From positions 1 to 44,255 of the IMG/VR virus record IMGVR_UViG_3300009091_000023: a stretch of 44,255 bases of DNA; one strand, 5' to 3'. The stretch comes from a virus. Each line of letters begins with the position of its first letter. The first letter of the stretch is position 1. The position numbers and the translations under genes are program-made. The notes under the pieces are model-generated. The model was given only the letters and a program-made list of their open reading frames with translations, had not been told where the DNA came from and made no database searches. Shown piece by piece: positions 15,022-36,063 of the stretch.

Positions 15022-15813
15022 CTAAGGCCCCACAGGACTGGCATGGAAGGCCTCCATGGCGTCCATCCTCTCTTCCAAGCGCCGCAGGCGGGCGCGAACC
15101 ACCTGCCTGAAGGTGGGTTCGGACTCATCGGGCACGCTGGGATTCAGGAAAGCCTTCGCTGCCATCACTAGTCTCACCACATCCAGCGCGCCCGTATCCC
15201 AGTGGTCGTTGCCAGGCACATGCTGATGGGCGCACAGGAACGGCACCCCAGGCCTGCCGTTGATGCCGTTCTCCCACTCGGCCCACGTCATGCGCTGCGG
15301 GGCATCAAAGCCCCAGCTACCGCGCTCCGACCACATGGCGGGGTCGGGGTAGTTATCCAGGACGGGTAGCAAATCGGGCAGACCAGTCACCACGTCGGCC
15401 AGCCACCCGCCCACCAGGTCGTACATGGCCTGCGACCAGTGGGGCGGCGCAGCGGCAGTGCTGATGATCTCCACCTGCACACAGTGCGAGCCACGGTGGT
15501 TCGTGTCGGGGTCGATGTCGCGGTGCAGCAGGGCGTAGGACGACAGGGCCAGATCACAGTGCTGCAACTTCAGCACGTCACCCAGGGCCAGCCGTCGGCT
15601 GCCCCCAGGGAACCAGTGCAGGCCAGGCTGCAGGCTGTGCGGGTCGCCCACCAGGCCGAGCGTGAAGTGCGGCGGCCACGGATAGTCAAAGGTGCGAAGA
15701 CCCTCGGTGGTGTGTAGCACGATGCGGCCTGGTGACTCGGGATGCCTCGGTGAGGCTCCCGTCCGTCCAGTCGACACCACCACCTTCTCGTATCCGTCTA
15801 GCCAAAGTGCCAT
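15022..15813 (-). CDS. N-acetylmuramoyl-L-alanine amidase (endolysin)
   Basis: GGAGGTTACA precedes ATG 15813; product 263 residues. The Amidase_2/PGRP pattern is present: VLHTTEG with zinc ligand His34, NHRGSHCVQVEI in mid-domain, and AHQHVPGNDHWDTGALD near 195-210 with the His/Asp ligands. It would cut the bond between N-acetylmuramic acid and L-alanine. The C-terminal 45 residues form an acidic-basic helix (FRQVVRARLRRLEERMDAME) rather than a known wall-binding domain. No signal peptide is visible, so release through the neighbouring holin-like proteins is expected. Confidence 0.8.
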   Translation of the reverse strand: MALWLDGYEKVVVSTGRTGASPRHPESPGRIVLHTTEGLRTFDYPWPPHFTLGLVGDPHSLQPGLHWFPGGSRRLALGDVLKLQHCDLALSSYALLHRDIDPDTNHRGSHCVQVEIISTAAAPPHWSQAMYDLVGGWLADVVTGLPDLLPVLDNYPDPAMWSERGSWGFDAPQRMTWAEWENGINGRPGVPFLCAHQHVPGNDHWDTGALDVVRLVMAAKAFLNPSVPDESEPTFRQVVRARLRRLEERMDAMEAFHASPVGP

Positions 15814-15839
15814 TGTAACCTCCATCTCTAGTTCTAGAA

Positions 15840-15846: not shown

Positions 15847-18800
15847 CTACTTGTTGAACAGCCTATCCAGGTAGGCATCGAATCCTGGCCCGCTCGCAGG
15901 GGCCTGCCCCGCAGGGTTCGCATCCACATCCGCCCACCTGTCCGCCCATTGCATGTCATCCATAATGCGTTCGATAGTAGCGTTGATCGGGTACAGGGCA
16001 CTGGGCACATCTGCGGGCGTCTGCACCTTGATGCCGAGCGGCGCTGCCTGGCGCAGCATGAAGGCTGTCAACCTGTCACCCCAGTCCCTGCCGTCGGGCG
16101 TGTAGCCGAGGCGCTGGGCCGTTGCAGGATTCGTCGGTGCCAGCGGCTCCATCCAGTTGCCGAGCAGCGGGTTGACGAAGGGGAAGGCGACGGAGAATGC
16201 AGAGGCCAGGCGGGAGTCCACCCTGTAGTCCCCCGTGTTCTCGTTCTTGACGAAGTTGATGCCAGGTATCCTGTCCATCATGGCCACCATCTGCAGCAGG
16301 CCCACCGAGGTCGCCTGCTTGTAGGGGTCGTCCGACTTGCTGATGAAGTCGAAAGGCAACTCCACCTGCGGGCCGAGCATGTTTCCCAGCCAGGCATACA
16401 GGCCGTCCATCGACAGACCCTGATCGTACACCTGCTCAAAGTCGAACAGGTCGTTGATCGGCATGTCGGGGTCAAAGAAGATGCGCGCCCAGAAGGGGGT
16501 GCCTTCGTTCATCACGATGCCCGTGCCCACCGCATACCTGCCCCAGTAGGGGGCGAGCGGGTAGGCGTTGTAGTAGTCGCCGCCGCCGAACTCCTGCTGC
16601 ATGTTGTACTGCAGCTTCCAGTAGCGGTAGATCAACTCGGGGCGCTCCATCACGGCCCTGATCTGAAACTCCAGGTTCCGCTTGCCCCACACGAAGAACG
16701 GCACCAGGTGGTCCTTCATCCACACTTCCGCATTCGTCAGGTCCGAGTAGTCGAAGTGGGCCACCTTCGCCATCGACGCAGCCCGACGTTCACTGAACGG
16801 GGTGCCCGCCTCGAAGTAGCGGAGGAAGGCAGCGAAGCGCATCCAGTCTTCCGACGTGCGCATCAGCTTGGTCCCCACCCTGATCGCCGCATGCTCCTTA
16901 CGATTGAACGGGTTCAGTGCCCTGGCGAATCCACGCCAGGTCTTCAGGGAGGGCAGGTTGCTCATCGCCCGAGCGAACTCGGTGCTGGCAAAGGTGTCGA
17001 ACACACCCTCCTTGTAGGCCATCTGCAAGGCCAGGCTGTCCCTGGCGGGCAGCTTGGCCAGCGCCGCCTCCAACGCGTGCGGGTCGCCCTTGATGTCGGT
17101 GGTGATACCCCACCAGGTGCGCAGCAGGTTGGCCGAACGGGCATAGTCGTAGGCGCGTACACCGATGAACATGCCGTTCCAGGTGCCGCCCATGATGTTG
17201 CGGGGAATGAACCTGGTGAAGTTGCCCACCGTCACCCATGTCTTCCACCACTGGTAGAACTTCTGGTAGCCCTTCGCCAACTCCCGCATCCCCTGCATCT
17301 TCCACATGTTCTGGGTAACCTTCGCGTAGTTGTCAAAGAACTGGAGAACTTCGGGGCGGACCACCATACCCTGCAGGGGGCCAGTGCCCAGGGCGTGCAG
17401 GCCAGGGTCCATGAACCCTGGCACGTTCTGTACGGTTCCCACATGGCCCTTCAACTTCAGCCTCTCCATGATCTGCCTGTACTGGGCTTCCGTGATGCCA
17501 TGCGCATCGAGCAGCTTCTTCGCATCCGCACGGACAGCGTTCAACTGGGTGCCGAACGCCTTGGTCACATCGTTGAAGGTGGCCTTGTTCAGTTCCAGGG
17601 CGCCCGTGGAGTCGGACTCCACCGCCCACTCCTTCAGCAGGCCGTGCATCGACTGCAGCAGTTGATCGGCAGCGATCACCGCCTCCGACTGGTTGGTTTC
17701 CAGCAGAACCTCCGCATCCTTGATCGCCTTGCCCAGACCCGTCACCGCATCCGTCAACGACAGGCTGGCGGAAGCGTTCTGCTGACTGATGAAGGCCCTG
17801 CGGATTTCGTCCATGGGGATGTAGTCCCCGCCGTGGGCGTCGATCAGGGCGCGCATCTCGCCTGCCACCCGATGGAACTCGGCTTGCTGAATCAGCCGTC
17901 GCCAGTCCCTCTCGGGCAGCCACCGTTTCGCCGCCTTCAGGTCCGCCGTTTCCTTCCCGTTCTGGTAGAGAGCGTCCCACAGGCCACGGGATTCGGGGTC
18001 GGCCACTGTCTGGTCCACTGCCAGGCGCAGCCTGCCCCACACTTCGCGCATCTTGTCGGCCTTGACCCCCTGGGCGGTGCGTACCAGCTTGAGGGGTCGG
18101 CCTGTGATGCCCGCCGCAGCAAGCTGCTTGTCGGTGGCACCCTCCACCACCTCAGCTACCGCTTCCAGCGGGGCGACATGCTTGCTCATGCTATCGTCCA
18201 GGTCGATGATGGTTTGAATCTTGCCGCGCACAATCGGGTCTTGCAGTAGCACTTCCTCGATGGTGCGGGGTACCCGCCTAGTACCCACTTCGGGCAGCCT
18301 ATCCGCCCCTCCGCGCAGGGCGGTGGCCAGCCCGTTCACAAACCTGCGAAGCTGCTTGTCGGCCAGGGTGACGGGCAGCCAGTCGAGGGTGGCCTCTTTC
18401 ACCATCACCTTATCGAAAGAGGGGATAAGCTGATGTTCGGGCATGAGGACAATCACGGAGAACTCACCCAAGGCCCGCTCCTTCATCTCCCCCCAGGTGA
18501 AGGAGCGCATCTTCGCCTCCATCCGCTTGTCCAGTACGCCTTGCAGCTTGACCAGTGCATTCCATTCCGACTCTAGGCCCGCCGCCACTACCCTGTCCCC
18601 GCCCGTCGGGTCCAGCCCCACCATCTTGTCGTAGATGTCTTCCAACTCCCGCTGGATGGCTCGCGCCTCGGGGTCGGCATCCAGCAGTTCGTCAATGGTC
18701 GGGCGAGCAGAGATGATGTCATTCCAGTACACGATGCTATCGTAACCTTCGGCAATCAGGTTGTCGCGGAAGGATTCGGCCACGGCCTGGCGAGCATCCT

Positions 18801-21800
18801 GTTCCATCATGTGGTCGAGGGAACCCACGATCGCATAGGCCCGCTCTTCGGGCACCTTGAAGGTGTCGATCAGGATGTCGATGATGCCCAGGTCTGGGTT
18901 CGCCTGCAGGGTGGCAGTGATCTCTTCGATGTTGTCGAAGAAGGGGCGCATCTCGGTGAAGGCTTCCCTGTAAACCCCATCCACCCGACGGCCCAGCGCC
19001 TCCGCTATGGCCCGCTCATCACCGCCGCCATGGGCGATCTCCATGCACCTTCTGATAGCAGCCCCGAACAGGTTGGCCCCCTCGGGGTCGGCCACACCCT
19101 GGGCGGCCCGCTGCCATCTGGCACTGTTGGCACGCATGTTGTGAGAGATGGCGTCGTCCTGCAGTTCGGCGTCGGCCCGCCCGAAGCGGAACGGGCGGTG
19201 GGCCGATATGCCCTGCAACTCCTGCTGGGCGATAGCCTCCACCTGCTCCTTGGGCGGACGATAGGCGTCCAGAGGTTTGCCAGGCAGCAGCCTACCCGCA
19301 GTGCGCCTGTCCCCACGGTATGCCTTGAACCGCTTGGCGACAACCTCGAAGTCGAGAACACCCAGGCCTTCATCGGCCCAACCGCGAACCCACAGGTCCG
19401 CCCCCTTCCTGGTTTCCGCCAGGTGGACGCCCATGTAGGAGTTCATGTTGTGGGTCACCCGTGCCGCTGGCGGCTTCGACCAGTCGGGCACTATCTTGTC
19501 GGCGGTCGCATGCGACCATGGATGGTTGCCCAGAGACTGGGGGGTTCTGTTGAGGGCACGGCCCTCATCCACCAGGGTCTGAAGGTACTCCTTGCCCCTA
19601 CGGGCCAGCGCCTTGTTCCAGCCGTAGGACGGCATCACCGCCCAACCCCAGGTGCCGTCCGCGTTGCGGACAGGCTGGATGATCTTGCCAGCCATCCCCT
19701 CCATGTACGAAGAGGCCAGAGCGAAGTGCGCCTCTGCCGTGGTCGGCCAGGCGCTCTCATCCCACAGCTTCTCCAGGGTGGCATCGGGGATGCGGAACCC
19801 GCCGTCCACGATCTTGATGCGGGGCGTAGCGAACTCCCATCCGATCTTGTTCCCCAGATTGCCGCCCACCTTCTGGACCCCCTGGTCAAGCTGGCCGATG
19901 TCCATGGTGGTGCGAAGTTCGGCGGACACGTCGAACAGCAGATCGCGCATCTGCATGATCGTGTCACCCGCCACACGGCGGTGATGGCCGACTGTGGCGA
20001 TCTTCACCATCTCCGCATCGGACGGCAGCAGCTTCTCTGTTACGCCGCCACCAGTCCTGGCTATGGGGCGTGTGAGGTCGGTGACCAGGGCGTCACCCTG
20101 CAAGCCCGAGCCTGCGCCCGAGCGGACCATGTTGTACCAGCCGAGCATGGTGTCGTACTTGACGCCCCAGGCGGTTGCCATCAGGGACAACCTGTTCGGC
20201 CTGGTGGTGGGAACCTCCACCTTGCCCCCGCCCTTCACCGTATGCATAATCGGCTGGCCCTGCTTGTCAAGCAGCGTGTACGTCTTTGGCAGCAGCGGAT
20301 CGTCGTCCAGGTTTCGGAACATGGCCTTCGCCATCCACTCCTGAATCAGCATCTTGTCGGCCTTGATGTGGGGGTCCAGACCGTAGGCGCGGGCCACCCG
20401 CAGCACGTCGGGGTCATCCCAGGGGCGGCCCTTGAACCTGGCGGTCATGATGCGCTGCGCCTCCTTGCGCCTACCCGCCTTCTCCAGCCTTGCCCCCGCC
20501 TTGGATACCACATCCCTGGGCCTACCCTGGGCACCCTCTGCGGGTCGGGCTTCCTCCAGGTTCTCGGCACCACGGCGCAGCCGCTCGCGCATGGTGGCGA
20601 ACTCTTCGCCTGGCAGCGCCCCAGGCTGCTCCGACAGTCGGCCCGTAGGGATATGCCCCTCTTCGGTGAGGCCCGAGTCGATGAAGGTGTCCATCTGCCT
20701 GAACAGCGTGTCGTCCAGTTCTGGCCCCGCCATGTCGTCCAGCCAGCCCCAGGCGCGCATGTCTTCCAGGGAGGCAAGGGTGGCCTTGCCTATGCGCACC
20801 GCCTTGGTGGCCGCCTCGATGAGGGGTGGGAAGTCGAAGAACTCATGGTCCCCGATGGCGAGAAGGTCGGCCCGCTGCATCAGGTCGCGGAACAGGTCGT
20901 TCGCCTTCACCGCCACCTGGGCTGCAGTCAGCTTGTAGTCTACCCCGCGCCACTTTCCGCTCCATGCCTTGTAGCCCCCACCGTCCTCCACCATGACCAT
21001 CAGGTCGCGGGCTGCTTCGAAGTTCTGTGACACGCGAATGCGACGGGCGAAGTCCAGGTAGACGACCATTGCCATCTTCATGTCGGCCCGCGCTTCGGCC
21101 AGGTCGAGCATGTCCTGCTTGGCGTGCAGGTAGGAGAGCCGCTGGGCGTGGATGTCCTCTTCCTGGGCGACGATCTCCAGGTTATCCCGCTCGGCCAGCA
21201 GCTTGCTTCGCTCTGTGTCCACTGCCGCCGAAAGGCGCCTGATCTCCTGGTCCAGGCGGGCGATTTCGGCCTCGTTGGAGGGCAGGGTCGTCGGACCCCA
21301 GCCGCCCACCTCGTAGGGTTTGCCCGCAGGCTGCTGGCCAGGTTGCCCAACCAACTTGTCCCTCACCTGCCCCTTCGACCAGGCCCGACGGGTGCCCTCG
21401 GGCTGACCGCCGATAACCTCGGCGGCGTGGGGCTGGATGCCCCGCCTCTCGTATCTCAGGTCTTCCAGAAGATGCTGCTGGCCCTCATCCAGGGCGGCCA
21501 GTGATTCGTCAATCTCCCTGATACGGGTGCGGGTTGTTTCCGAACGGGTGGTGACACGGCCCTGCTGCTGCAGCCGTTCGATCTGGCTGATCTCATCGGC
21601 AACCTCTTTCCGCATCTGGTTGAAACGCTGGGTGATCTTCGGCATGATGTACTGACCGACCATCTGCTGCATCTGCTGCTGGGTGAGTCGCTGCGAGTTG
21701 AGGGCTGGGTCGAGATGTTCGCTGGCTTCCAGCAGCGGGGACGGCTGACGGGGTTGCACCCGTTCGACTGTGCGACGGGTGGTCTGCAACTTCTCCACCC

Positions 21801-24800
21801 CGACCTTGCCTTCCGACTCGGCCTGGCGGATGATCTTGAACATCTGCTCCTGGGCGTCGCTGAGGGCCTGGTTCACTGTGCGCCGTGCCAGGCTGTTGAT
21901 GGAGGCCGCCTTCGTCGCCGTCCTGCGGGCAGGCTTGCCCGTAGTCTCCCAGACCGCCCTGAACTCGGGTCCGAGCAGGCCGACAGCGCGGTCGGTCATG
22001 ACCGCGAACTCGTCGGACAGGCGGGCACCAGCCTGCAAGATGGCCTCACAGAAGTCGCTCATCGCATCCGACGGGAAGGCGGCGATCGTTTCCGCCACCT
22101 CACGCGGCAGACCCGTCTGGTCCATGATCTCCTGCACCACCTGACCCACAGGTATGCCTGTGGCGGGGTGGGTTCCCTTCACATAGGAGGCGTACTCCTT
22201 GGTCACCCTGTCATAGGCCTCCTGCACTGGCTGCTGGTTCCAAATCTGGTCCCACAGTTCAAGCTCGGTGGTTCCTAGCGGCCTCTTCACCATCTTGCGA
22301 ACACCGTACCTGGACTTGCCGCCTGTGGCGACGAACTCGGCAAGCTCCTTGCGCAGCGGCGACGTGTCCCACCAGGAGCCGATGATCGCGTTCACCGCAT
22401 CCTGAATGCGGACGGCCTTGCCCTGGCTCATCTTGCGGGCCATCACGTAGTTGATTCTCTTGAACTGGTCGACTATCGCCCACTCTTCCACCGCATGACC
22501 CACCTGGCTGATGTATCCCTGCACCAGGGCAGACGCATTGTCTTCGAACACCTTCGGCACTGCCAGGCCGTTTGGCCCTGGGATGCTGTCCACTGCGGCC
22601 CGACGGGGCACCAGCACCTTGGGGTTCTCGCCCAGCACTGTCTGCAGTGCTTCCCCCACCACCTTGTTGAGTTCGGTGGTCGGGGCGAAGAATGACTCAG
22701 CGAACTTGTGGTCTTTCAGAATGGCGGGTATCAGGTACTGCCCTGGGTTGGACGACAGATCATCCAGCGGCAGCATCTCCACCACCACCCTACCGATGGT
22801 GCGCTTCTCCATCGACGGGGCGTGGCCCAGTTTGCTGACCGCCATCTTCTGGCGGACGCTGGCCACGATGTCTGACAGAATCTGGAACCCTGCCCCGCGG
22901 GTCGGGTCGATGTCGATGCCACTGTCGGCAAGGGCTTCCGTCACCTGCTTGCCCCACTCCGTTTCCCTGGACGGGAGGTAATCATCCAGCTTGCCCAGGG
23001 TGCTGTTGTAGTCGCGGGCCTTCTGCCAGAGCCGCTGCATCGAGTCTTCCATCTTGCCCGCATACTCGATGGCCAACTTATGCACCCTGTCGTTGCCGCC
23101 AATCAGCTTGCTGCCCGAAGTCCAGGCCGACTTGTCGCGGGCCTGCATGAAGTCGGTGATCTCCCGCATCACCACGTTGTAGTCCAGCCCCTCTTCCGAG
23201 ACAACGTGGTTCATGACTGCCCCGTAGCGTTCCACGCTGTCGACGGCACGGCGGACCAGTATTCCGATTGCCGACTTGGCGTCCTGTTCCGCCGACCACA
23301 TCATGATGTTGCCCTTGCGAGCCAGGCTGATGATGAAGTGGTCGCGGCCAAACTTGCTGGCCAGGTCGTCCAGTTTCTCGGCAGCACGGGCGAGGATTGG
23401 GAGGTTATCCTTCGCTGTCGACCACACCCTGCCCAGGGTGTGCGCCTTCAGCCAGGAGCCTACCCCCGTTGTGTGGGGTAGCACCCAGCCGCCATTGCCC
23501 GTGATGGTGCCAATGCGGATACCGCCAGCGGCCCACTTGGGTAGCCCGCCCTCAGCGACAGGGAGGTCGACCAGTTGCAGGAAGTCCTGGTCCACCTCGA
23601 AGAACCTGCGGGAGACAATCGGCCTCACCGTATGTTCGAACAGGTCGGACTTCACGGTGCCGACCGCACGGTCCACGATGTTCTGGGGACCGTGGGCGGC
23701 GTTGAACTCGGTGATCGCCTTCTCCATCCGAGCGTATAGGGCCTTGGTCTGCCCAGCAGTGTAGCCGCCTGCGGCGGCACCCTTCCGCCCCAGGGGCACA
23801 CTCGCCTGGATGCCATCCAAGATGTCCATCAGTTCCGCATTGTCGAGGGCGCGCACCGTGTCGATCTGATCGTCCACTTGGCGAAGGACACGCCGCACCC
23901 ACGGGAATCGCATGAACTCCATGGTGGCGCGGCCCACCGTCATCTTCTCTGCTGCATCCACCACGCCAATCCAACCGCGGCGGCCAGCCGATTCGATGAC
24001 GGCCTCGCGGAGGGCCGAGTCGACTACCGACCCGACGCCTATCGCCCTGGATGTGGAACCTACCAGGCTGGCCCCCAATCCGACATAGGAGAAGGGGTCG
24101 GCGGCAACGTCGCCCGCGAAGGCGGAAAGCCCTCGCACTGCTTTGCCCAGAGCGATGGGGATGTTGAGGGCGGCATTATCGGTGAACTCCAGTTCGGGTA
24201 CCCCAGCATTACGGAAGAAGTCGGTGCTGGTGAACATGCCTTCCTCACCGAACATGCTGTCGGGGCCACCCCTGAGTTGCTCATACTGACCCTGGGCAGT
24301 GTGCAGCATCTCATCGAGACTGACCAGCGGCATGTAGTCGAATCCGAGGCGACTGGCCCGCTCTTCCCCGAGCAGGTTCACGATGATGTTGCTGGCCCCT
24401 GCCCCCAAGTTCCAGGCCAGTTCCAGCACCGTCTGCATCGGCCTGGAGAACGGCTCCAACTTGAGCAGCACCCGCTTCCACCAGGGCAGGGACACTTCGG
24501 GGTGCAGAATCTGGCGCTGGTTGTTCGCCAGTTCATTGCCATACGCCTGCAACCTTTCGCGGTCCTCGTCGGATAGGCCAGGCTGGGCCAGCATCTCCTG
24601 CAGGGCGGCCATGGTGCGGTTCATGGCGGCGACGGCCTCACTGTCCGTCATGGGGTCTTGGCTGCCAGGGTAGGTGGTGACGGGCTTGGGGGCAGGCATC
24701 ACCATCTCGGCGTAGGCGCCAGGCTCACGGGCGTAGAAACGGTCGAGGAAGGACGGCAGGTTGCTGCCCCCGCCGAGAGAGGCGGTTAGCTGTTTAGCAT

Positions 24801-24870
24801 AGGTCAGATTGCGGTTGGCTTCGTAGCCGCTGTTCGCGTATATCTGGTCGAGGATGTCCGTGTAGGACAT
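15847..24870 (-). CDS. Giant polyvalent virion (ejection) protein, 3007 aa
   Basis: The largest gene of the window, coupled to the M23 gene by TAATG. It is mostly helical with few obvious domains. Near the N-terminus is a hydrophobic patch (about 147-168). Coiled coils lie at about 1060-1135 and 1200-1250. Residues about 1809-2150 contain SYMGVHLAET, EGYDSIVYWNDI (from 2042) and FSVIVLMPEHQLIPSF (about 2135), resembling the ADP-ribosyltransferase-like domain of phage polyvalent proteins. At about 2706-2730 FDYSDLT and VPFFVWGKRNLEFQI match a C-terminal signature of giant phage virion proteins. After the 336- and 824-residue genes, it is placed like the last internal-core protein of T7-type phages, so ejection into the cell is inferred. 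N4-type polymerase motifs were looked for and not found. Confidence 0.75.
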   Translation of the reverse strand: MSYTDILDQIYANSGYEANRNLTYAKQLTASLGGGSNLPSFLDRFYAREPGAYAEMVMPAPKPVTTYPGSQDPMTDSEAVAAMNRTMAALQEMLAQPGLSDEDRERLQAYGNELANNQRQILHPEVSLPWWKRVLLKLEPFSRPMQTVLELAWNLGAGASNIIVNLLGEERASRLGFDYMPLVSLDEMLHTAQGQYEQLRGGPDSMFGEEGMFTSTDFFRNAGVPELEFTDNAALNIPIALGKAVRGLSAFAGDVAADPFSYVGLGASLVGSTSRAIGVGSVVDSALREAVIESAGRRGWIGVVDAAEKMTVGRATMEFMRFPWVRRVLRQVDDQIDTVRALDNAELMDILDGIQASVPLGRKGAAAGGYTAGQTKALYARMEKAITEFNAAHGPQNIVDRAVGTVKSDLFEHTVRPIVSRRFFEVDQDFLQLVDLPVAEGGLPKWAAGGIRIGTITGNGGWVLPHTTGVGSWLKAHTLGRVWSTAKDNLPILARAAEKLDDLASKFGRDHFIISLARKGNIMMWSAEQDAKSAIGILVRRAVDSVERYGAVMNHVVSEEGLDYNVVMREITDFMQARDKSAWTSGSKLIGGNDRVHKLAIEYAGKMEDSMQRLWQKARDYNSTLGKLDDYLPSRETEWGKQVTEALADSGIDIDPTRGAGFQILSDIVASVRQKMAVSKLGHAPSMEKRTIGRVVVEMLPLDDLSSNPGQYLIPAILKDHKFAESFFAPTTELNKVVGEALQTVLGENPKVLVPRRAAVDSIPGPNGLAVPKVFEDNASALVQGYISQVGHAVEEWAIVDQFKRINYVMARKMSQGKAVRIQDAVNAIIGSWWDTSPLRKELAEFVATGGKSRYGVRKMVKRPLGTTELELWDQIWNQQPVQEAYDRVTKEYASYVKGTHPATGIPVGQVVQEIMDQTGLPREVAETIAAFPSDAMSDFCEAILQAGARLSDEFAVMTDRAVGLLGPEFRAVWETTGKPARRTATKAASINSLARRTVNQALSDAQEQMFKIIRQAESEGKVGVEKLQTTRRTVERVQPRQPSPLLEASEHLDPALNSQRLTQQQMQQMVGQYIMPKITQRFNQMRKEVADEISQIERLQQQGRVTTRSETTRTRIREIDESLAALDEGQQHLLEDLRYERRGIQPHAAEVIGGQPEGTRRAWSKGQVRDKLVGQPGQQPAGKPYEVGGWGPTTLPSNEAEIARLDQEIRRLSAAVDTERSKLLAERDNLEIVAQEEDIHAQRLSYLHAKQDMLDLAEARADMKMAMVVYLDFARRIRVSQNFEAARDLMVMVEDGGGYKAWSGKWRGVDYKLTAAQVAVKANDLFRDLMQRADLLAIGDHEFFDFPPLIEAATKAVRIGKATLASLEDMRAWGWLDDMAGPELDDTLFRQMDTFIDSGLTEEGHIPTGRLSEQPGALPGEEFATMRERLRRGAENLEEARPAEGAQGRPRDVVSKAGARLEKAGRRKEAQRIMTARFKGRPWDDPDVLRVARAYGLDPHIKADKMLIQEWMAKAMFRNLDDDPLLPKTYTLLDKQGQPIMHTVKGGGKVEVPTTRPNRLSLMATAWGVKYDTMLGWYNMVRSGAGSGLQGDALVTDLTRPIARTGGGVTEKLLPSDAEMVKIATVGHHRRVAGDTIMQMRDLLFDVSAELRTTMDIGQLDQGVQKVGGNLGNKIGWEFATPRIKIVDGGFRIPDATLEKLWDESAWPTTAEAHFALASSYMEGMAGKIIQPVRNADGTWGWAVMPSYGWNKALARRGKEYLQTLVDEGRALNRTPQSLGNHPWSHATADKIVPDWSKPPAARVTHNMNSYMGVHLAETRKGADLWVRGWADEGLGVLDFEVVAKRFKAYRGDRRTAGRLLPGKPLDAYRPPKEQVEAIAQQELQGISAHRPFRFGRADAELQDDAISHNMRANSARWQRAAQGVADPEGANLFGAAIRRCMEIAHGGGDERAIAEALGRRVDGVYREAFTEMRPFFDNIEEITATLQANPDLGIIDILIDTFKVPEERAYAIVGSLDHMMEQDARQAVAESFRDNLIAEGYDSIVYWNDIISARPTIDELLDADPEARAIQRELEDIYDKMVGLDPTGGDRVVAAGLESEWNALVKLQGVLDKRMEAKMRSFTWGEMKERALGEFSVIVLMPEHQLIPSFDKVMVKEATLDWLPVTLADKQLRRFVNGLATALRGGADRLPEVGTRRVPRTIEEVLLQDPIVRGKIQTIIDLDDSMSKHVAPLEAVAEVVEGATDKQLAAAGITGRPLKLVRTAQGVKADKMREVWGRLRLAVDQTVADPESRGLWDALYQNGKETADLKAAKRWLPERDWRRLIQQAEFHRVAGEMRALIDAHGGDYIPMDEIRRAFISQQNASASLSLTDAVTGLGKAIKDAEVLLETNQSEAVIAADQLLQSMHGLLKEWAVESDSTGALELNKATFNDVTKAFGTQLNAVRADAKKLLDAHGITEAQYRQIMERLKLKGHVGTVQNVPGFMDPGLHALGTGPLQGMVVRPEVLQFFDNYAKVTQNMWKMQGMRELAKGYQKFYQWWKTWVTVGNFTRFIPRNIMGGTWNGMFIGVRAYDYARSANLLRTWWGITTDIKGDPHALEAALAKLPARDSLALQMAYKEGVFDTFASTEFARAMSNLPSLKTWRGFARALNPFNRKEHAAIRVGTKLMRTSEDWMRFAAFLRYFEAGTPFSERRAASMAKVAHFDYSDLTNAEVWMKDHLVPFFVWGKRNLEFQIRAVMERPELIYRYWKLQYNMQQEFGGGDYYNAYPLAPYWGRYAVGTGIVMNEGTPFWARIFFDPDMPINDLFDFEQVYDQGLSMDGLYAWLGNMLGPQVELPFDFISKSDDPYKQATSVGLLQMVAMMDRIPGINFVKNENTGDYRVDSRLASAFSVAFPFVNPLLGNWMEPLAPTNPATAQRLGYTPDGRDWGDRLTAFMLRQAAPLGIKVQTPADVPSALYPINATIERIMDDMQWADRWADVDANPAGQAPASGPGFDAYLDRLFNK

Positions 24871-27344
24871 TACCCACCGCCAAGACCCAGGGCTGCCGCC
24901 AGGAAGGGAACTGGGTTGACGTGAAGGGTGCCGCCAACAGTGGTGACGGTGAGGTGCAGGTGGTAGGCTCCGTGCTGCGGGTTGCCCGTGTCGCCCACCT
25001 GGCCGATACGCATGCCCGCGCCCACCTGATCACCAATGTGGACGGGCGGGGCCACCATCATGTGCATGTACTCGTAACGGCGTCCGTCAAGGCCCATGAT
25101 CTCCACGATGTGGCCACCCTTGTCCTCTTCATACCGCACGTCGATGACCTCGCCAGCCACCATGGCCAGGATGGGAGTGCCCTGTGAGGCGTTGATGTCG
25201 ATACCCTGATGGATGTTGCCGTTGCCACGGTCCTCATGGAAGTTGCTGCTGCCATCCCAGGCCACACCTGGCAGCGGGAAGGCCATGTTGCCACCCGTCA
25301 GCATCTCGCGGTCGACTTCCCACTGATGGGAGCCTGTGCCGATCGCATCGAAGGCGGTCTGGTACAAGCGCAGTTCCTGTCGGCTCGGCCTCTCGAACCA
25401 GGAGTCCATGGTACTCTGGGCGTAGGTATGAAGGGCCGCAGTCAACTTCTTCGACTCTTCCAGGTTGAGGCCAGCGTAGATGTACACCCCGTCGGCGTTC
25501 TTCCGCCCGACACCGATGTAGCCCGCATTGTCGATTCCGTTTGCAGTGGCAATGTCTGCGCGGGTACCGCTCCAGGCCTCGGAGGGGTCGGTTATGAAGG
25601 TGTTGGCGATCGTATCTCGCTCCACGATCTGCGCCGCCTGGATGTCGTCCAGTACCCCGATGAACTCCTGGTACGATGTGATACGATTGGGAGTGAAGTT
25701 GGATGTGCCGCTGAAGAACTCGACCACATCCTTGCTGATCTCGGCCCAGTCGATCTCATCGAAGTCGCCGCCCGCCAGGGAGATAGCCTCCTGCAGGCGC
25801 TCGTTCATGTACAGGGTGGCGAAGTCTATCTGCGACAGGTTGAAGCTGTCGTCCGCCGCCCAGGCGGCGTAGGCGGCAGCGGTGGCAGTGTCCACTGCGG
25901 CGGACTGGTCCGCCTGAGTGAGCAGGTAGTCCTGCTGCAACTTCCGAAGCTGCTCCCCCAACTCGAAAGTGATCTGCTCCGCAGTCTCGTTCGCGGTCAG
26001 AATAACCTCGTCACGCTGCGTCTGGTACGCCTGGCGGGCACTCTCCATGCTCGCCTGTACCTGCACGGTGGCCTGGGCGCGGGCGCCCGCCGACTCGGCA
26101 AGCTGCCCCGCCTCCTGGTAGGCGGAAGACTCAAGCAACTTGTACTGCATGACTTCAGCCTCATTCAGATAGGAGGACATCTCCTGCTGTAGGGAGGCCA
26201 GCCGTCCTGCCACCTGGTAGCGAGCCGCCTTGATGGACAGTTCGCCCACCGCTCGCTGCAGGCGCTCCCCCCACACGCCCTCGACTGTGGCCTGCTCGAC
26301 TGCAATCCTGGCGCACTCGTTCAGATCGCCCATCACTTCGGTCTGAAGGTCGGGGTCGGTGTTGCCGATTATCCGTGCTGTCTCGGAGAAGGTGACGGAG
26401 GCAGCCGCGACGGCACTGGCAATACCCTGAATCTCTTCTGTCTGCCCCTGTCGCACTGCAGCGATGGCCGCATCCGTGCCCTGGTAGATGGCGTCCACAA
26501 CAGGGCGCCAGTATTCGGGGATGCGCCGCATCACCTGACCATAGTTCTCTCTGGTGGATGCCATATACTCGTTGATCAGACCCTGCACCTTCGCCCTATA
26601 GTCGTTCCAACCCGACTTGACGGCAGCTTCATACTTGTCGTAGCCCTGGTCAATCAACTGTTGGTACTGCTTGTATGAGGCTTGCGCCGCCTGGGCGTTG
26701 ATGCCGATGATGTTCACCGCCTGGTCGCGCCAGGTCGACCACAGGCCATTCACCCTGCCCAGGGCCTCGTTGGTGCGGTCGATCTCGCTCTGAATCACAT
26801 CCAGCCGAGCCTGGTAGGAACCTGCGGCGATGTTGGCGCCGACCGCCAGGGCGTTGTTCAGCCCGACCAGGGCATCCTGCTGTATCCCGCGGAGATAGGC
26901 GGTGGCGTCGGGGCCACTGACCTCGGGCATCGGGGGCAGTGCGGGCAGTCCAGATGTGGGCCTGTTCGCCTCATGTCCACCACCGCCAGGGCGGGCATGG
27001 GTGGCGCCGTAGTCACCCCAGGGTATGGGGCCACTCGGCGTCGGTGGCTGGTAGCCCTGCGGGATGGACGGCCCTTGCCAGGCGCCCATAACGGGGGCTG
27101 TCTGGGGACCGTTGAGACTCTGTGCCGCCCGTGAAGGGCCGAATATGTAGGAGAGAGCCTGCCCGATCTGCTCCATAGCCTCGGGGGGCATAGGCTGGGC
27201 GGGCGGCAGCCCACCGCCGCTGGCTGCGCTGTAGGGATTGGTGACGGGCTGCGGCCCGCCAGGCTGATAGGTGGCGGGGGCGTGCAACTGCAGCCAGAGG
27301 GCCAGTCCGCTGGTCCGTGGGGTCACGGACCTGGGAACAGCCAT
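24870..27344 (-). CDS. Virion protein with C-terminal M23 endopeptidase domain, 824 aa
   Basis: The first 130 residues are Pro/Gly-rich (PPAQPMPPEAMEQ, GGGGHEANRP). Residues about 150-560 are helical and rich in Ala, Gln and Glu, suiting an internal core or tube-forming protein. The C-terminal 110 residues are a LytM/M23 metallopeptidase: IHQGIDI (His712, Asp716) and YHLHLTV (His795, His797) supply the zinc and catalytic residues. M23 domains cut peptide cross-bridges of peptidoglycan. In a virion protein this would open the wall for genome entry. Both ends overlap their neighbours by one base (TAATG). Confidence 0.8.
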   Translation of the reverse strand: MAVPRSVTPRTSGLALWLQLHAPATYQPGGPQPVTNPYSAASGGGLPPAQPMPPEAMEQIGQALSYIFGPSRAAQSLNGPQTAPVMGAWQGPSIPQGYQPPTPSGPIPWGDYGATHARPGGGGHEANRPTSGLPALPPMPEVSGPDATAYLRGIQQDALVGLNNALAVGANIAAGSYQARLDVIQSEIDRTNEALGRVNGLWSTWRDQAVNIIGINAQAAQASYKQYQQLIDQGYDKYEAAVKSGWNDYRAKVQGLINEYMASTRENYGQVMRRIPEYWRPVVDAIYQGTDAAIAAVRQGQTEEIQGIASAVAAASVTFSETARIIGNTDPDLQTEVMGDLNECARIAVEQATVEGVWGERLQRAVGELSIKAARYQVAGRLASLQQEMSSYLNEAEVMQYKLLESSAYQEAGQLAESAGARAQATVQVQASMESARQAYQTQRDEVILTANETAEQITFELGEQLRKLQQDYLLTQADQSAAVDTATAAAYAAWAADDSFNLSQIDFATLYMNERLQEAISLAGGDFDEIDWAEISKDVVEFFSGTSNFTPNRITSYQEFIGVLDDIQAAQIVERDTIANTFITDPSEAWSGTRADIATANGIDNAGYIGVGRKNADGVYIYAGLNLEESKKLTAALHTYAQSTMDSWFERPSRQELRLYQTAFDAIGTGSHQWEVDREMLTGGNMAFPLPGVAWDGSSNFHEDRGNGNIHQGIDINASQGTPILAMVAGEVIDVRYEEDKGGHIVEIMGLDGRRYEYMHMMVAPPVHIGDQVGAGMRIGQVGDTGNPQHGAYHLHLTVTTVGGTLHVNPVPFLAAALGLGGG

Positions 27345-28354
27345 TACCTTCCGCCAGCGAGGACGGGAGTGTACGGGCTGGTAATCACTGTCGGCCTCTG
27401 CAGCATCGAGTTGATGATGTCAGTGTACGACAGCGGCTGGTAGGGGGCGCCCGTGCCAGCGCCAGCACCACCAGGGCCGCCCGTGTAGGCGCCACCCTGG
27501 GTGGGTCCAGCGGCCACCCCAGTCGCTACCTTCGTAGGTTCGATAGGCGCATACAGATCGGAAGTCTGCGGCTGGCCAGGCAGCGGCAACTGGGGTGCCG
27601 TCACGTAGGGCGGGATGATCGGGGAGGCGACAGGCAGCGGCCCCGATGGCATCATCGCGCCCAGCAGCACCTGCTCCTGCTGCTGGCGCCACTGGGCCAG
27701 GGCGATCGCCATGTCCGACTGGGCAATGGCGATGTCCGAAGCCTGCTGTTCGGGCAGGCGAGCCAACTGGACGTTCAGCCCTTCGCGGGCATCCGCCGCC
27801 TGCTTCTTCATCCCCATCTCCTGGGTGGCCACATCTGACAGCACATTGCCGACACCCTTCGCATAGATGCCCGACTGCATGATGCCCCGCTCCAGGGCCG
27901 CGTTCTCGGTGGCCTCCAAACCCTGCTTCTTGTACACGCCCAGTTGCTGCAGGGCGGACTCCAGGGCGGGGTTGATGGCGGCAAGCTGGGAGCCAAGGTC
28001 TTCGGTGGTGTAGCCGTACTGGGCGGCCACTTGCTCCAGGTAGGCGGCGAGAGCATCTGCGTTCAGCCCTTCGGCCTCCGCGATGTTCTTCTCCACATTG
28101 GCCCGCATCTGGGCCTGCCAGTTGGCAACGGCAGCCTGGTAGGCCGCGTTCTGCTGGGCCACCTGCGCCTGGTAGGCGCCGATCGCCTCCTGCACGTTCT
28201 GCTGGTAGGCCAGATACTGGTAGATGGAGTGGCGGTAGTTGGTTACATCGGCAGGGCTGAGGGAGGCGCGGTAGCCTTCGCCTTGGGCCAGTCCGTAGCC
28301 TTCGGGCATTGCCCCGCCAAGGGATTGTCTTACGTCCTGCCAGGTTACGGGCAT
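27344..28354 (-). CDS. Putative internal virion protein, 336 aa
   Basis: An Ala/Gln-rich helical body (residues 45-230: AYQAQVAQQNAAYQAAVANW and similar) is followed by a Pro/Gly-rich tail (VASPIIPPYV, GGPGGAGAGTGAP). The penultimate segment PLSYTDIINSML resembles the first residues of the 3007-residue protein (MSYTDILDQIY). By order and composition it parallels the smallest ejection protein of short-tailed phages. No good ribosome-binding site is seen; the start directly follows TGAG. Confidence 0.6.
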   Translation of the reverse strand: MPVTWQDVRQSLGGAMPEGYGLAQGEGYRASLSPADVTNYRHSIYQYLAYQQNVQEAIGAYQAQVAQQNAAYQAAVANWQAQMRANVEKNIAEAEGLNADALAAYLEQVAAQYGYTTEDLGSQLAAINPALESALQQLGVYKKQGLEATENAALERGIMQSGIYAKGVGNVLSDVATQEMGMKKQAADAREGLNVQLARLPEQQASDIAIAQSDMAIALAQWRQQQEQVLLGAMMPSGPLPVASPIIPPYVTAPQLPLPGQPQTSDLYAPIEPTKVATGVAAGPTQGGAYTGGPGGAGAGTGAPYQPLSYTDIINSMLQRPTVITSPYTPVLAGGR

Positions 28355-28947: not shown

Positions 28948-31848
28948 CTACGCGCTCCTAGTCAGAACCACACACACGGTCAGACCCGCACCCGCAATCG
29001 TAGAACCGATCTGGTCCACGTTCACCGTCAGATAGGAACCTGCGGCGAAAGTGGTCACATCGGGGGTCTTGGCCGTACCCGAGTCGAAGGCGCTGACGGC
29101 GATGGTGGGCCTGTTCGCCTGGGTAGTGAAGATGGTGGTCCCATCCTTGTGGACATCCACGATGATAGCCGCTCCTGTCGGGGCGGTCGAACAGGTAGCA
29201 TAGGCACTGACCAGGGTGGCGGCGTAGGGTAGGCGCAGCCGTATGGCGGTCGTGTCGGTAGTGACGGCCAGATCGCCGCTGGTGCAGAAGGGGAACACTT
29301 CGGTATGAGTGTGGGCAGCCACAGCGAAGGCGGCTGCCTCGTTGCCGTCCAACAGGTCGGCATCTAGGCCAGAGGCAGCGCCGTCCACTGTCTTGATGGC
29401 AGTCAGAATCTCTGCTGCGGTCTGATCTGCGGTGGCCGACGTTTCAATACCAGCCAACTTGGTGACCATGGCGGCGGTCATAAAGCCCGCGCCTTCCCCA
29501 GCGTCAGCGTGGGCGGCGCCGCCCGCCCCGACGTGGGCGATCGGGGCATAGGTGCCCGAGTAGTCGTGGGTGTGGCCCGAAGTGGCCAGGCCCGCCTCTG
29601 CGGCGGTCTGGTTTATCCAGGTGGTAGTGCCCGAGTTGTAGGCGAGAACCTCGTCGTCGGCTGGGGTGTCGATGGTAACGTCGGTCTGCCCCGCATCGAG
29701 GGCGTGGGTGCCAGCGGCAGCTACCCCTGGCTCGAAGTTGGCTGTTGCCTCATTATAGATGAGGATGTCGCCATCGACCAAGCCCGTCAGATCGACATCA
29801 ACGTGGGCACCGATACTGTGTGTACCGCCAGGCGGGATGGCTTCGGCCACCCAGGTTGATGTTCCAGTATCCCAGGTGAGAACCTCCCCATCGCCAGGGG
29901 CAGCCGCATCCACATTGCTGATGTCATCGAGAGCATGCGCATGACCCGAAGTGGCGAAGGCGGCAGACGAACTACCGTCGAGAAGGTCAGCGTCAAGCCC
30001 CGAACCAGTACCATCCACCGTAAGCAGGGCAGCCAGTATCTCGGCAGCCGTCTGATCGGCGGTGGCCGCTGCTTCGATGCCCGCCAACTTGGTGAAGTCG
30101 GCGGCAGTGAGAAACCCCGCCACTACCGCGGTGGCGTCGCCGTGGGCCGCTCCCGTGGCGCCCACATGGGCGGCAGCGGCGAAGTCGGCTGCCGTGTAAC
30201 CCGAGGCATCCAACTCGCCTGTCGCGGTCATGTAGGGGAAGTGGTCGTCTTCGGGTGCGCCGATGATGCTGATGTAGGAGGCATCATGGTTGTGCGTCGC
30301 GGCAGCAACCCCTGCCTCGGCCAACGAACGGTCTATCCAGCCCGAACCCGACACATACTGCAGCAGTGACTGATCGGCCACCGCCGTGATCACCACATCG
30401 GACAGGTCGTCCAGGGCAAGAGCGCCCACCCCTGGGGCTGCCGCCTCCCAGGCGCTGGTGCCAGCGTTCCAGACGATGGTGTCGCCACCCGCTGGGGTGC
30501 TGGCCGTCACGTCGGATAGGGCGTCCAGGGTGTGCGAATGGCTGGAGGGGGAGAGGCCCGCCGTGGCAGCAGCCATGTTCTTCCAGGTGGCCGAGGCGGT
30601 GTCGTAGGCAAGCAGATCGTGGTCGGCCTGGCCCGCCAGGACCACATCGGGGATGTCGTCCAGTTCGCCCAGGCTGGCGGCGATGGTGGCGGGTATCACC
30701 CAGACCTGGCCGTTGAAGTGGATGCTGTTGGCCAGGGCGGCCACCGAGCCTGTGGCCCCCCAGCAGGCGAACTTGATGGTGCCGTCCGCAGCGGTTGTTA
30801 CATCGCCCACCCAGCGGAGGGTGATCGTGTCGAGGACAGGGTTGCCCGCTGCGGCGTTCACCGTGATGGCATGACCGTGGGAGCCTCCCAAGTAACCACT
30901 GACAGAGTGGGTATGAGTGGAGCTATTCTGCATGGTCGCGACAACACTGGAGGCCGCGAGGCTACCTGCGCCATGGTCGTGGGAGGTGCTAGCGTTGCCA
31001 GTGGTGTGGGCGGGAATGGAATGGGTGTGAGTCACCCCACCTGAACCCGTAGTAGTGGATGCGTTGGCATAACTACCATACGAGTGGGAGTGGGACGAGG
31101 TGACCCCCGAAGTGCCGTACACGTATGTACCAGGCTGGCTATGGGTGTGCGAGTAGGCGGATGCGCCGCCCGAAGTGTCCGCCACCGCCGTGTGGGTGTG
31201 GGCGATGCCGCCAGTCCCCGACGTGCCCGACACATCGTGGCCATGAGTATCCATGGTGTGGGCGTGGGCGCCGTCGGCGGCGGCCACACCCGAAGGGTAG
31301 AAGCCAGCATAGGTGTCGGACGAGCCGCCGTGGACGTGGGTGGATGGGGAGAAGCCGCCGTTGAAGGTGGGGTAGCCGCGCAGCGCGTCCTGAATCTCGA
31401 TCTGCGCGCCCCAGTTGTCACCTGTCGTCAGGTTGGAGGCCTGCACCACCATGGTGACATCCACGAACACCAGGGTGGCAGCCGTCAGGCCTGTGGCAAA
31501 GGTTGTCTCCCACACCTGGGCGAAGGCCCCGCTAGTGAGGGTCCAGCCCGCTGCCGAGTAGAGGGCAATGTCCAGCACGTTGCCCGTGCAGGCAGCGATG
31601 ATGTCGGCCAGGTGGTCCCCGTCGAGGGTGTCGGCATCCAGGGTGGAACCAGTGCCGTCGTTACCCGCATGCCAGATGTCATTCGAATCGACCTGGCTGC
31701 CGAGGGGAAGGTTGACGGTGCCGTCCGCTTCGAGGCGGATGGTCTTGTAGTTGATGAACTCTTCCAGGTCGATACGGTTACGTTCGAGGACGGGGGCGAG
31801 TTCCTGCCCGCTCTTGTAGCGGAGCGGAGTGGTGTACTCCTGAGCCAC
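28948..31848 (-). CDS. Large tail-fibre protein with His-rich and repeat modules, 966 aa
   Basis: GTG 31848 follows GCGGAG and overlaps the preceding gene end. The N-terminal 130 residues include DLEEFINYKTIRLEADGTV, a typical fibre entry domain. Residues about 165-340 hold many His-x-His pairs (SHSHSYG, HTHSIPAHT, HTHSVSGYLGGSHGH), as in metal-stabilised trimeric fibre tips. The rest is a string of modules with H-x-H, LDDLSDV and TADQTAAEIL-type repeats, each ending LDADLLDG. A beta domain of about 100 residues ends the chain (ATTLVSAYATC, TIFTTQANRPTI). It likely forms a trimeric receptor-binding fibre. Confidence 0.75.
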   Translation of the reverse strand: MAQEYTTPLRYKSGQELAPVLERNRIDLEEFINYKTIRLEADGTVNLPLGSQVDSNDIWHAGNDGTGSTLDADTLDGDHLADIIAACTGNVLDIALYSAAGWTLTSGAFAQVWETTFATGLTAATLVFVDVTMVVQASNLTTGDNWGAQIEIQDALRGYPTFNGGFSPSTHVHGGSSDTYAGFYPSGVAAADGAHAHTMDTHGHDVSGTSGTGGIAHTHTAVADTSGGASAYSHTHSQPGTYVYGTSGVTSSHSHSYGSYANASTTTGSGGVTHTHSIPAHTTGNASTSHDHGAGSLAASSVVATMQNSSTHTHSVSGYLGGSHGHAITVNAAAGNPVLDTITLRWVGDVTTAADGTIKFACWGATGSVAALANSIHFNGQVWVIPATIAASLGELDDIPDVVLAGQADHDLLAYDTASATWKNMAAATAGLSPSSHSHTLDALSDVTASTPAGGDTIVWNAGTSAWEAAAPGVGALALDDLSDVVITAVADQSLLQYVSGSGWIDRSLAEAGVAAATHNHDASYISIIGAPEDDHFPYMTATGELDASGYTAADFAAAAHVGATGAAHGDATAVVAGFLTAADFTKLAGIEAAATADQTAAEILAALLTVDGTGSGLDADLLDGSSSAAFATSGHAHALDDISNVDAAAPGDGEVLTWDTGTSTWVAEAIPPGGTHSIGAHVDVDLTGLVDGDILIYNEATANFEPGVAAAGTHALDAGQTDVTIDTPADDEVLAYNSGTTTWINQTAAEAGLATSGHTHDYSGTYAPIAHVGAGGAAHADAGEGAGFMTAAMVTKLAGIETSATADQTAAEILTAIKTVDGAASGLDADLLDGNEAAAFAVAAHTHTEVFPFCTSGDLAVTTDTTAIRLRLPYAATLVSAYATCSTAPTGAAIIVDVHKDGTTIFTTQANRPTIAVSAFDSGTAKTPDVTTFAAGSYLTVNVDQIGSTIAGAGLTVCVVLTRSA
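29330..30110 (-). repeat. Internal repeats within the fibre gene
   Basis: Two copies of a segment encoding LAGIE-x-x-ATADQTAAEIL, then TVDG, SGLDADLLDG and AAFA, lie about 640 bases apart (around 29340-29470 and 29960-30090). A third partial copy (STLDADTLDG) is near 31630. Confidence 0.65.
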
Positions 31849-35106: not shown

Positions 35107-36063
35107 CTAGGCGGTCGCGCCAGTGAGCTTACCGTGACGCTTGCAGTTGGAAGCGATCAGGTTGGCATAGCACAGGATGTGCTTGTACCACACGTCCTGG
35201 TTAGTGGGCGCCCGCATTTCGCTGGGCTTGAACCACACACCAGACAGGTACTTCAACCAGATGTACTTCATGTTGACAAAGTACATGTAGGTGGCGGTGC
35301 AGTTAGCCGAGTACGCCATCGGCGTACCCTTGAACATCAAGTTCTGGAATCCTGCATCAGCCATCTTCGGGTCTTCGAACCTCTGGTTGGCCTGAATCAG
35401 CGACTCGTACTTCGCATGGAGTGTCGCGGTGGTGAAGATGTTGGTCGGATGATCGTTACCTTCCGAGATGGTGTTGTACAGGGTGACCATTGCGGCCACC
35501 GTGAGGGCACCACCCATTCCAGTTTCGGTCGAGCGCCAATAGGCACCGCTCGCAGCGGTCCTGTCAATCCCACCGAAGTCCCCCCATGACGGGTCAGACG
35601 CGTCGATGATGCACTCCAGGCCATACATGTCCTTGCCAGCGTTACCAGAACCATCACCGAAGAACATGATCTCAAGCTCTTCGCTCATGGTCAACTCCAG
35701 TTGCTGCAGCCGAGCGTCGAGTAGGGAGAGCAGAGCCGAGCGGCCCCTGTTCTTCGCCATCTCGATACCCTCCATGGAGAACAGACCGTAGTACTGCTTC
35801 CAGGGGAACTCGACGGCAGAGATACCACTGTTGGGATTGGTCGTGAACGGGTCGGCTCCCGAATAGGAACCCTTGTTCGTGGCCAGGCCATACACCAGGG
35901 GCTGCACGATCTTCTCGCCGCCCTCCTGGTTCTGGATGCGCGCCGCGTTCTTCAACACCCAGAGTAGAGGCTTCGACGTGAACACGTTGTCGGCCAGAGT
36001 CGGGATGTAGTGCTTCAGCGTGGTAGCAAGCAGACCATCAGTGCCGTAGGTTGCATTAGGCAT
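35107..36063 (-). CDS. Major capsid protein
   Basis: The 318-residue product has GAAAGGAGGG about 14 bases upstream. It is placed directly after scaffold and before connector. Its opening (TLKHYIPTLADNVFTSKPLL), strand-rich middle (VEFPWKQYYGLFSMEG), long spine-type helix (RSALLSLLDARLQQLELTMS) and later IFTTATLHAKY with ANQRFED fit HK97-fold capsids of many podo- and siphophages. No N-terminal delta domain is present, which agrees with a separate scaffold gene. It forms the icosahedral shell. Confidence 0.85.
   Translation of the reverse strand: MPNATYGTDGLLATTLKHYIPTLADNVFTSKPLLWVLKNAARIQNQEGGEKIVQPLVYGLATNKGSYSGADPFTTNPNSGISAVEFPWKQYYGLFSMEGIEMAKNRGRSALLSLLDARLQQLELTMSEELEIMFFGDGSGNAGKDMYGLECIIDASDPSWGDFGGIDRTAASGAYWRSTETGMGGALTVAAMVTLYNTISEGNDHPTNIFTTATLHAKYESLIQANQRFEDPKMADAGFQNLMFKGTPMAYSANCTATYMYFVNMKYIWLKYLSGVWFKPSEMRAPTNQDVWYKHILCYANLIASNCKRHGKLTGATA

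Follow-up and report, generated by a model that had tools for sequence, protein, structure and literature searches.

A Giant Podovirus Protein Predicted to Be Ejected with the DNA: Conserved Ends, a Variable Middle and a C-Terminal Core Resembling That of N4-Type Virion RNA Polymerases

1. Introduction

The ejection genes of T7-type phages are ordered by rising size, gp14-gp15-gp16, and gp15-like proteins can bear a wall hydrolase (PMC8954989). In the Schitoviridae, the last ejection gene of N4 encodes the virion RNA polymerase (vRNAP, gp50), a giant, cysteine-free protein of 3500 residues that is ejected with the DNA. The lack of cysteine in vRNAP has been connected with its route into the cell, via the tail and across the oxidising periplasm (PMC2784036, PMC3715699), and the paper describing the N4 structure reports that its C-terminal domain is without a structural relative (PMC12633501). 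A still larger protein of 4515 residues was found by mass spectrometry in virions of the Burkholderia podovirus JC1 (PMC9144972), and Iyer et al. (2017; PMC5512222) described a scheme of polyvalent phage proteins that encompasses such molecules as the 3912-residue large polyvalent protein of Ruegeria phage 45A6. As a group, giant ejected proteins are poorly understood.

Here we describe a further candidate, P0001, encoded by a virus record of 44,255 bases with a GC content of 62%, which is referred to below as the window. P0001 probably belongs inside the virion, from which it would be ejected, and follows a polyvalent design; more specifically, the sequence evidence leads us to put at roughly 75% the probability that a podovirus uses it as its large ejection protein, standing in the position of gp16 or vRNAP and built as a two-ended delivery chassis around a swappable cargo middle. 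Read from sequence are the open reading frame (ORF) and its operon position, the pair of modules around a variable middle, the scarcity of cysteine and the resemblance of the C module to vRNAP.

2. The Giant Gene and Its Operon

An unbroken ORF of 3007 codons with an ATG start runs on the minus strand from 24870 to 15847, filling the interval in which the earlier note had placed a single 9-kb gene for 3007 residues; that placement holds, and the strand, which had been left unstated, can now be added. That the ORF is coding is confirmed by homologous ORFs in other viral contigs (3072, 2690 and 1890 aa). The gene is real and ordinary in position, and its product is a member of an undescribed family. 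Two ORFs of 766 and 739 aa on the plus strand inside the gene were rejected as unsupported shadows in DNA of 62% GC.

The start of the giant gene shares 1 bp with the end of an 824-aa ORF (24870-27344), which in turn overlaps a 336-aa ORF (27344-28354), and because the three ORFs overlap successively, the proposal that the gene comes after two putative core proteins is borne out. With lengths of 336, 824 and 3007 aa in consecutive order, the giant gene is the last and largest of three ejection-position genes, encoded among the late virion genes. The full order on the minus strand is a small terminase candidate, large terminase, portal, scaffold, major capsid protein, tail tube A-like protein, tail tube B/stabilisation-like protein, fibre, the three ejection-position genes (the second with an M23 peptidase domain) and an endolysin-like gene, and it is retained partly or wholly in relatives. 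These genes are the podovirus virion module of the Mx8 line (compare PMC10386132); the plus strand encodes an exonuclease, a DnaB-like helicase and a primase at 3-9 kb. The coordinates of the principal features are collected in Table 1.

Two smaller observations concern the same module. The tail fibre (966 aa, 28948-31848) contains repeated DG/TADQTAAEIL-type stretches and histidine-rich repeats, and the head genes of the window recur with 100% identity in an 8.2-kb contig from a separate record (L008, IMGVR_UViG_3300006224_000173).

Table 1. Features of the giant gene and of neighbouring virion genes, in window coordinates.
Feature	Position	Strand	Basis or remark
Giant gene P0001, 3007 aa	15847..24870	-	Homologues in other viral contigs (3072, 2690 and 1890 aa); product predicted to be an internal virion protein that is ejected
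N module, residues ~28-896, motif FAGDVAADPFSYVGLGAS (residues 251-268; 24067-24120)	22183..24789	-	Iterated profile HMM; 66 of ~80 C-module ORFs
Variable middle, residues ~897-2492	17395..22182	-	Common only to closest relatives; other domains in distant ones
ADP-ribosyltransferase-like stretch, residues 1782-2157	18400..19527	-	Alignment with P0007; suggestive only
C module, residues ~2493-2974, mostly helical	15949..17394	-	Profile in 80 of 80 ORFs; AlphaFold2; BFVD to E 1.4e-12
C-module core, about residues 2650-2750, aligning with Schitoviridae virion RNA polymerase C-termini	16621..16923	-	hhalign
Signature HFDYSDLT...VPFFVWGKRNLEFQI, residues 2705-2737; full motif HFDYSDLTNAEVWMKDHLVPFFVWGKRNLEFQI	16660..16758	-	Within C module
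Endolysin-like gene, 267 aa, directly after giant gene	15022..15825	-	phrog_17214, E 1.7e-5
824-aa protein, C-terminal M23 peptidase (residues ~711-804), gp15-position ejection protein	24870..27344	-	Pfam E 6e-16; PDB 9k2v_E match; adjoins giant gene in relatives too
336-aa protein, gp14-position ejection protein candidate, without cysteine	27344..28354	-	Position; relatives in L009/L010
Major capsid protein, Mx8-like	35107..36063	-	phrog_9953, E 3e-59; relatives in Mx8, Mx9, Ruegeria 45A6, MW202803

The layout invites comparison with T7, whose gene for gp16 likewise comes last among three ejection genes and is the largest; gp16, too, is mostly helical and has few or no cysteines, although P0001 lacks its N-terminal transglycosylase and is more than twice its size. 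Homology to gp16 was considered and rejected (hhalign score 20.4, E 0.16, inside the null range of the vRNAP comparison described in Section 5). The DarB-like 4515-aa protein of JC1/Bcep22 is also encoded by a giant gene that closes a podovirus virion module, a likeness of description; unlike P0001, it carries helicase/methylase-type domains.

In the PDB, the M23 domain of the adjoining 824-aa protein matches 9k2v_E (1058 aa, “Internal protein”) and 9m7n (915 aa, “Gp16”), which means that structures of phage internal proteins bearing an M23 domain have been solved; a literature search found no paper on either entry. M23 and SLT domains are not general across the wider giant-protein family. A few PHROG matches to this neighbouring M23 domain are tape-measure proteins, and a search for virion proteomics found none for any member of the giant-protein family, so that one might suppose P0001 to be a tail protein of the tape-measure kind, or else a cytoplasmic protein outside the virion. 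We regard either as very improbable: the gene set is that of a podovirus, with tail tube A and B and no tail-tape slot, the giant gene lies at the end of the virion operon, and it shares with known ejection proteins the exclusion of cysteine.

3. Two Conserved Modules Flank a Variable Middle

P0001 is hard to place by direct search. Neither Pfam nor PHROGs gave it a match at threshold, and PDB sequences gave none; a PDB sequence search with the family was likewise empty, tblastn against 50,697 phage records and DNA searches of annotated phages returned no match to the giant protein, direct locus searches with P0001 and with its C-terminus found none, and a scan of genome contigs found no prophage. 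Relatives were instead reached via the capsid protein, which led to six IMG/VR contigs, three of which carry a homologous giant ORF (3072, 2690 and 1890 aa) at the equivalent place in the operon. The 3072-aa ORF is the closest relative, with 28-41% identity over most of its length. Among these three giant relatives the N-terminal ~900 and the C-terminal ~500 residues are conserved, and the middle is well shared only with the closest.

A search with the C-terminal alignment then yielded 77 loci. Iterated profiles place the C module in all 80 tested phage ORFs, which reach up to ~3900 aa, and the N module in 66 of about 80, most of the ORFs that lack it being cut at the 5′ end. The motif near the C-terminus of P0001, which the earlier note had taken as the signature of a family of giant proteins, is indeed that: it is invariant in close relatives and recognisable in about 80 phage ORFs.

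Both modules also occur in three annotated phages, namely Microbacterium phage Shocker (gp37, 1743 aa), Cellulosimicrobium phage DS1 (1783 aa) and MW202803 (1312 aa), and in each the gene lies before the lysis genes, as in the window. These giant genes, previously unannotated as members of such a family, have a shorter middle than P0001; the gene in MW202803.1 (L002:14313-18251) carries the label “chromosome segregation”. The hosts of the other two isolates are actinobacteria, and since these actinobacterial podoviruses (Shocker, L103:7504-12735; DS1, L104:6593-11944) bear both modules, the system extends beyond hosts with an outer membrane.

In the AlphaFold2 model, the C module is predicted to be helical, with pLDDT mostly 75-97. 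Foldseek found no match to this model below E 0.5 in the PDB, and seven matches with E < 1e-3 in BFVD, the named ones being mostly large polyvalent protein associated domain proteins. Virion RNA polymerases also match weakly in BFVD (Roseobacter phage RD-1410W1-01, probability 0.87, E 0.3). In a transmembrane scan of P0001, every 19-residue window stayed at or below 1.3 on the Kyte-Doolittle scale, and no hydrophobic stretch reached the length of a classical membrane helix; amphipathic insertion is possible.

4. Exclusion of Cysteine

At the cysteine rate of the window's non-structural genes P0001 should contain ~37 cysteines (Poisson 5e-14), and at that of the window's other structural genes ~15 (6e-5); it has 2 in 3007 residues. 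The same holds for the family at large: 42 of 44 distinct complete ORFs are cysteine-free, and the total is 4 cysteines in 74,445 residues, against 7.6 per 1000 residues in the other ORFs of the same loci, a mechanical control set that includes some non-genes. Zero cysteines are likewise found in T7 gp15 and gp16, N4 gp50 and gp51, the RPP1 vRNAP and a 3421-aa protein of Pseudoalteromonas phage Y3. This scarcity lends independent support to ejection of the giant protein.

5. Similarity to N4-Type Virion RNA Polymerases

When the C module was aligned by hhalign with a profile of ten Schitoviridae vRNAP C-termini, 99 columns matched at the signature motif with a score of 45.8 and an E value of 9.5e-5. 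As controls, comprising local column shuffles and reversals only, 150 column-permuted profiles scored at most 25.5 and the two reversals scored 14.7 and 15.4. The C-module profile run on N4 gp50 gave 11.1 bits at residues 3236-3407, above all 600 of 600 shuffles (best 7.4). Despite its E value of 9.5e-5, the hhalign match has a probability of 59%, and for this reason we consider the resemblance between the C-module core and the C-terminus of N4-type vRNAPs, as seen in these alignments, to be well supported but not proven. We found no report of this link in the literature covered, from which most subscription journals are missing.

The likeness extends to other properties, in that N4 vRNAP, like P0001, is a giant product of the last ejection gene; the similar C-terminal core covers ~100 residues. 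The two differ in that P0001 has no RNA polymerase domain (no polymerase match in Pfam or PHROGs) and no HExxH metallopeptidase-like domain, and in that the N module and middle region of P0001 are unmatched in gp50. Taken with the operon position and the exclusion of cysteine, the vRNAP similarity supports the idea, put forward in the earlier note, of a giant protein that would enter the cell with the DNA.

6. The Variable Middle

Between the same two ends, the relatives differ in their domains. The 3693-aa relative in L034 (476-11557) has cpYpsA (SLOG; E 6e-22) and DUF4326 between its two modules, and ParB is present in the middle of the relatives L028 and L030. Swapped middles between constant ends fit the polyvalent-protein scheme of Iyer et al. 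(PMC5512222), and the expectation that such a protein could carry several activities is therefore supported at the level of the family, although for P0001 itself it found no such backing, since no domain exceeds the Pfam or PHROG library threshold. Pfam matches to BAR_4 and NTP_transf_5 lay below the curated cut-off and were set aside, and the sequence contains neither an HExxH nor a Walker A motif.

One stretch of the middle is suggestive, and no more than suggestive, of an ADP-ribosyltransferase (ART). In the Tox-ART-HYD2 clade the active site consists of H on strand 1, Y on strand 2 and D on strand 5 (PMC5512222). Candidate counterparts in P0001 are the H of PWSHAT (1784), the D of GYDSIVYWN (2042) and a final strand SVIVLMPEHQL (2138); judged by eye, the expected Y is replaced by the H of GVHLAE (1814). 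The stretch and its H...D motifs are common to P0001 and its closest relative, P0007, the only one recovered by a scan for further ART-like relatives and already known. Against five phage ARTs, the stretch gave a borderline hhalign score of 24.8 compared with a null maximum of 23.5 in 200 permutations, and the alignment was confined to the region around GYD. It has no Pfam or PDB match, and its AlphaFold model is not confident (pLDDT 37).

Two further accounts of the middle can be considered. According to the first, P0001 is a purely mechanical ejection protein, an enlarged gp16-like conduit or DNA clamp without enzymatic cargo, and its middle is a helical spacer. The lack of a family match at threshold in the middle, the many helical stretches in the partial AlphaFold model and the existence of far shorter related ORFs (P0005, 1312 aa) all speak for such a protein, but relatives have enzyme-type domains in the same place (cpYpsA, ParB), the ART-like H...D stretch recurs in the closest relative, and a spacer of 1600 aa would be costly; we consider this account rather doubtful. 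The second makes P0001 a full polyvalent effector as Iyer et al. (2017) describe such proteins, delivering several catalytic domains at infection to disarm or reprogram the host. Here the comparison with Ruegeria phage 45A6 is instructive. Its 3912-aa protein resembles P0001 in size, in late virion-gene position, in the C module (E 4e-27) and in having relatives with swapped domains; it bears LPD38, GNAT, MTS (methyltransferase) and helicase domains, with the C module directly preceding LPD38, whereas P0001 has no LPD or catalytic domain at the Pfam threshold. Size, late-gene position and a chassis held in common with domain-bearing relatives thus favour an effector, and what tells against it is that P0001 offers a single nameable candidate domain, the ART-like stretch, borderline in profile and of low confidence in structure, and lacks both an HExxH processing protease and a Walker A motif. 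We treat the full effector as a fair contender whose chances fall somewhat short of even.

7. A Model for Delivery

Packaging, ejection, the order of ejection, the roles of the modules and any cargo activity of P0001 are what we infer in favouring a delivery chassis with a swappable middle. Several results weigh against this reading: a search turned up no virion proteomics for the family, T7 gp16 is not detectably similar, the vRNAP match has a probability of 59%, no classical membrane helix is apparent, and none of the candidate cargo domains of P0001 reaches a library cut-off. In the model, the giant protein would be housed in the head and would leave it together with the DNA, behind the smaller ejection proteins (336 aa and 824 aa). 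The M23 peptidase of the 824-aa protein would open the wall, and the giant protein would then follow. The C module probably tethers the giant protein in the head, mediates its passage and refolding at the inner membrane, or does both, with the C-terminal end of N4 vRNAP as the parallel; an equivalent role at the opposite end may fall to the N module. The middle of ~1600 residues would be exchangeable cargo, active once inside the host, and in the phage of the window one segment of this cargo may be an ADP-ribosyltransferase.

A broader proposal, which we advance tentatively and rate at just under an even chance, is that the C module is a common ejection module of N4-type vRNAPs, LPD38-type polyvalent proteins and the P0001 family, and that the cargo is swapped (RNA polymerase, ParB, SLOG, methyltransferase/helicase, possibly ADP-ribosyltransferase) and threaded, free of cysteine, into the host with the DNA. 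The parts of most interest are the C module shared with vRNAP and the cysteine rule. If the proposal is true, some 80 phage proteins sharing the C-terminal core of vRNAP would turn an orphan domain into a general delivery module, and the question of which part carries the cargo through would become testable. In addition, a long late ORF with almost no cysteine would be a cheap genome-scale marker for ejected proteins in unannotated phages.

A variant arrangement is seen in Pseudoalteromonas phage vB_Pun_Y3 (L117:3978-16381), where a cysteine-free 3421-aa ParB/ART protein is followed by an ART protein of which the later part weakly matches the C module (E 2e-5); in this phage the chassis may be split over two genes.
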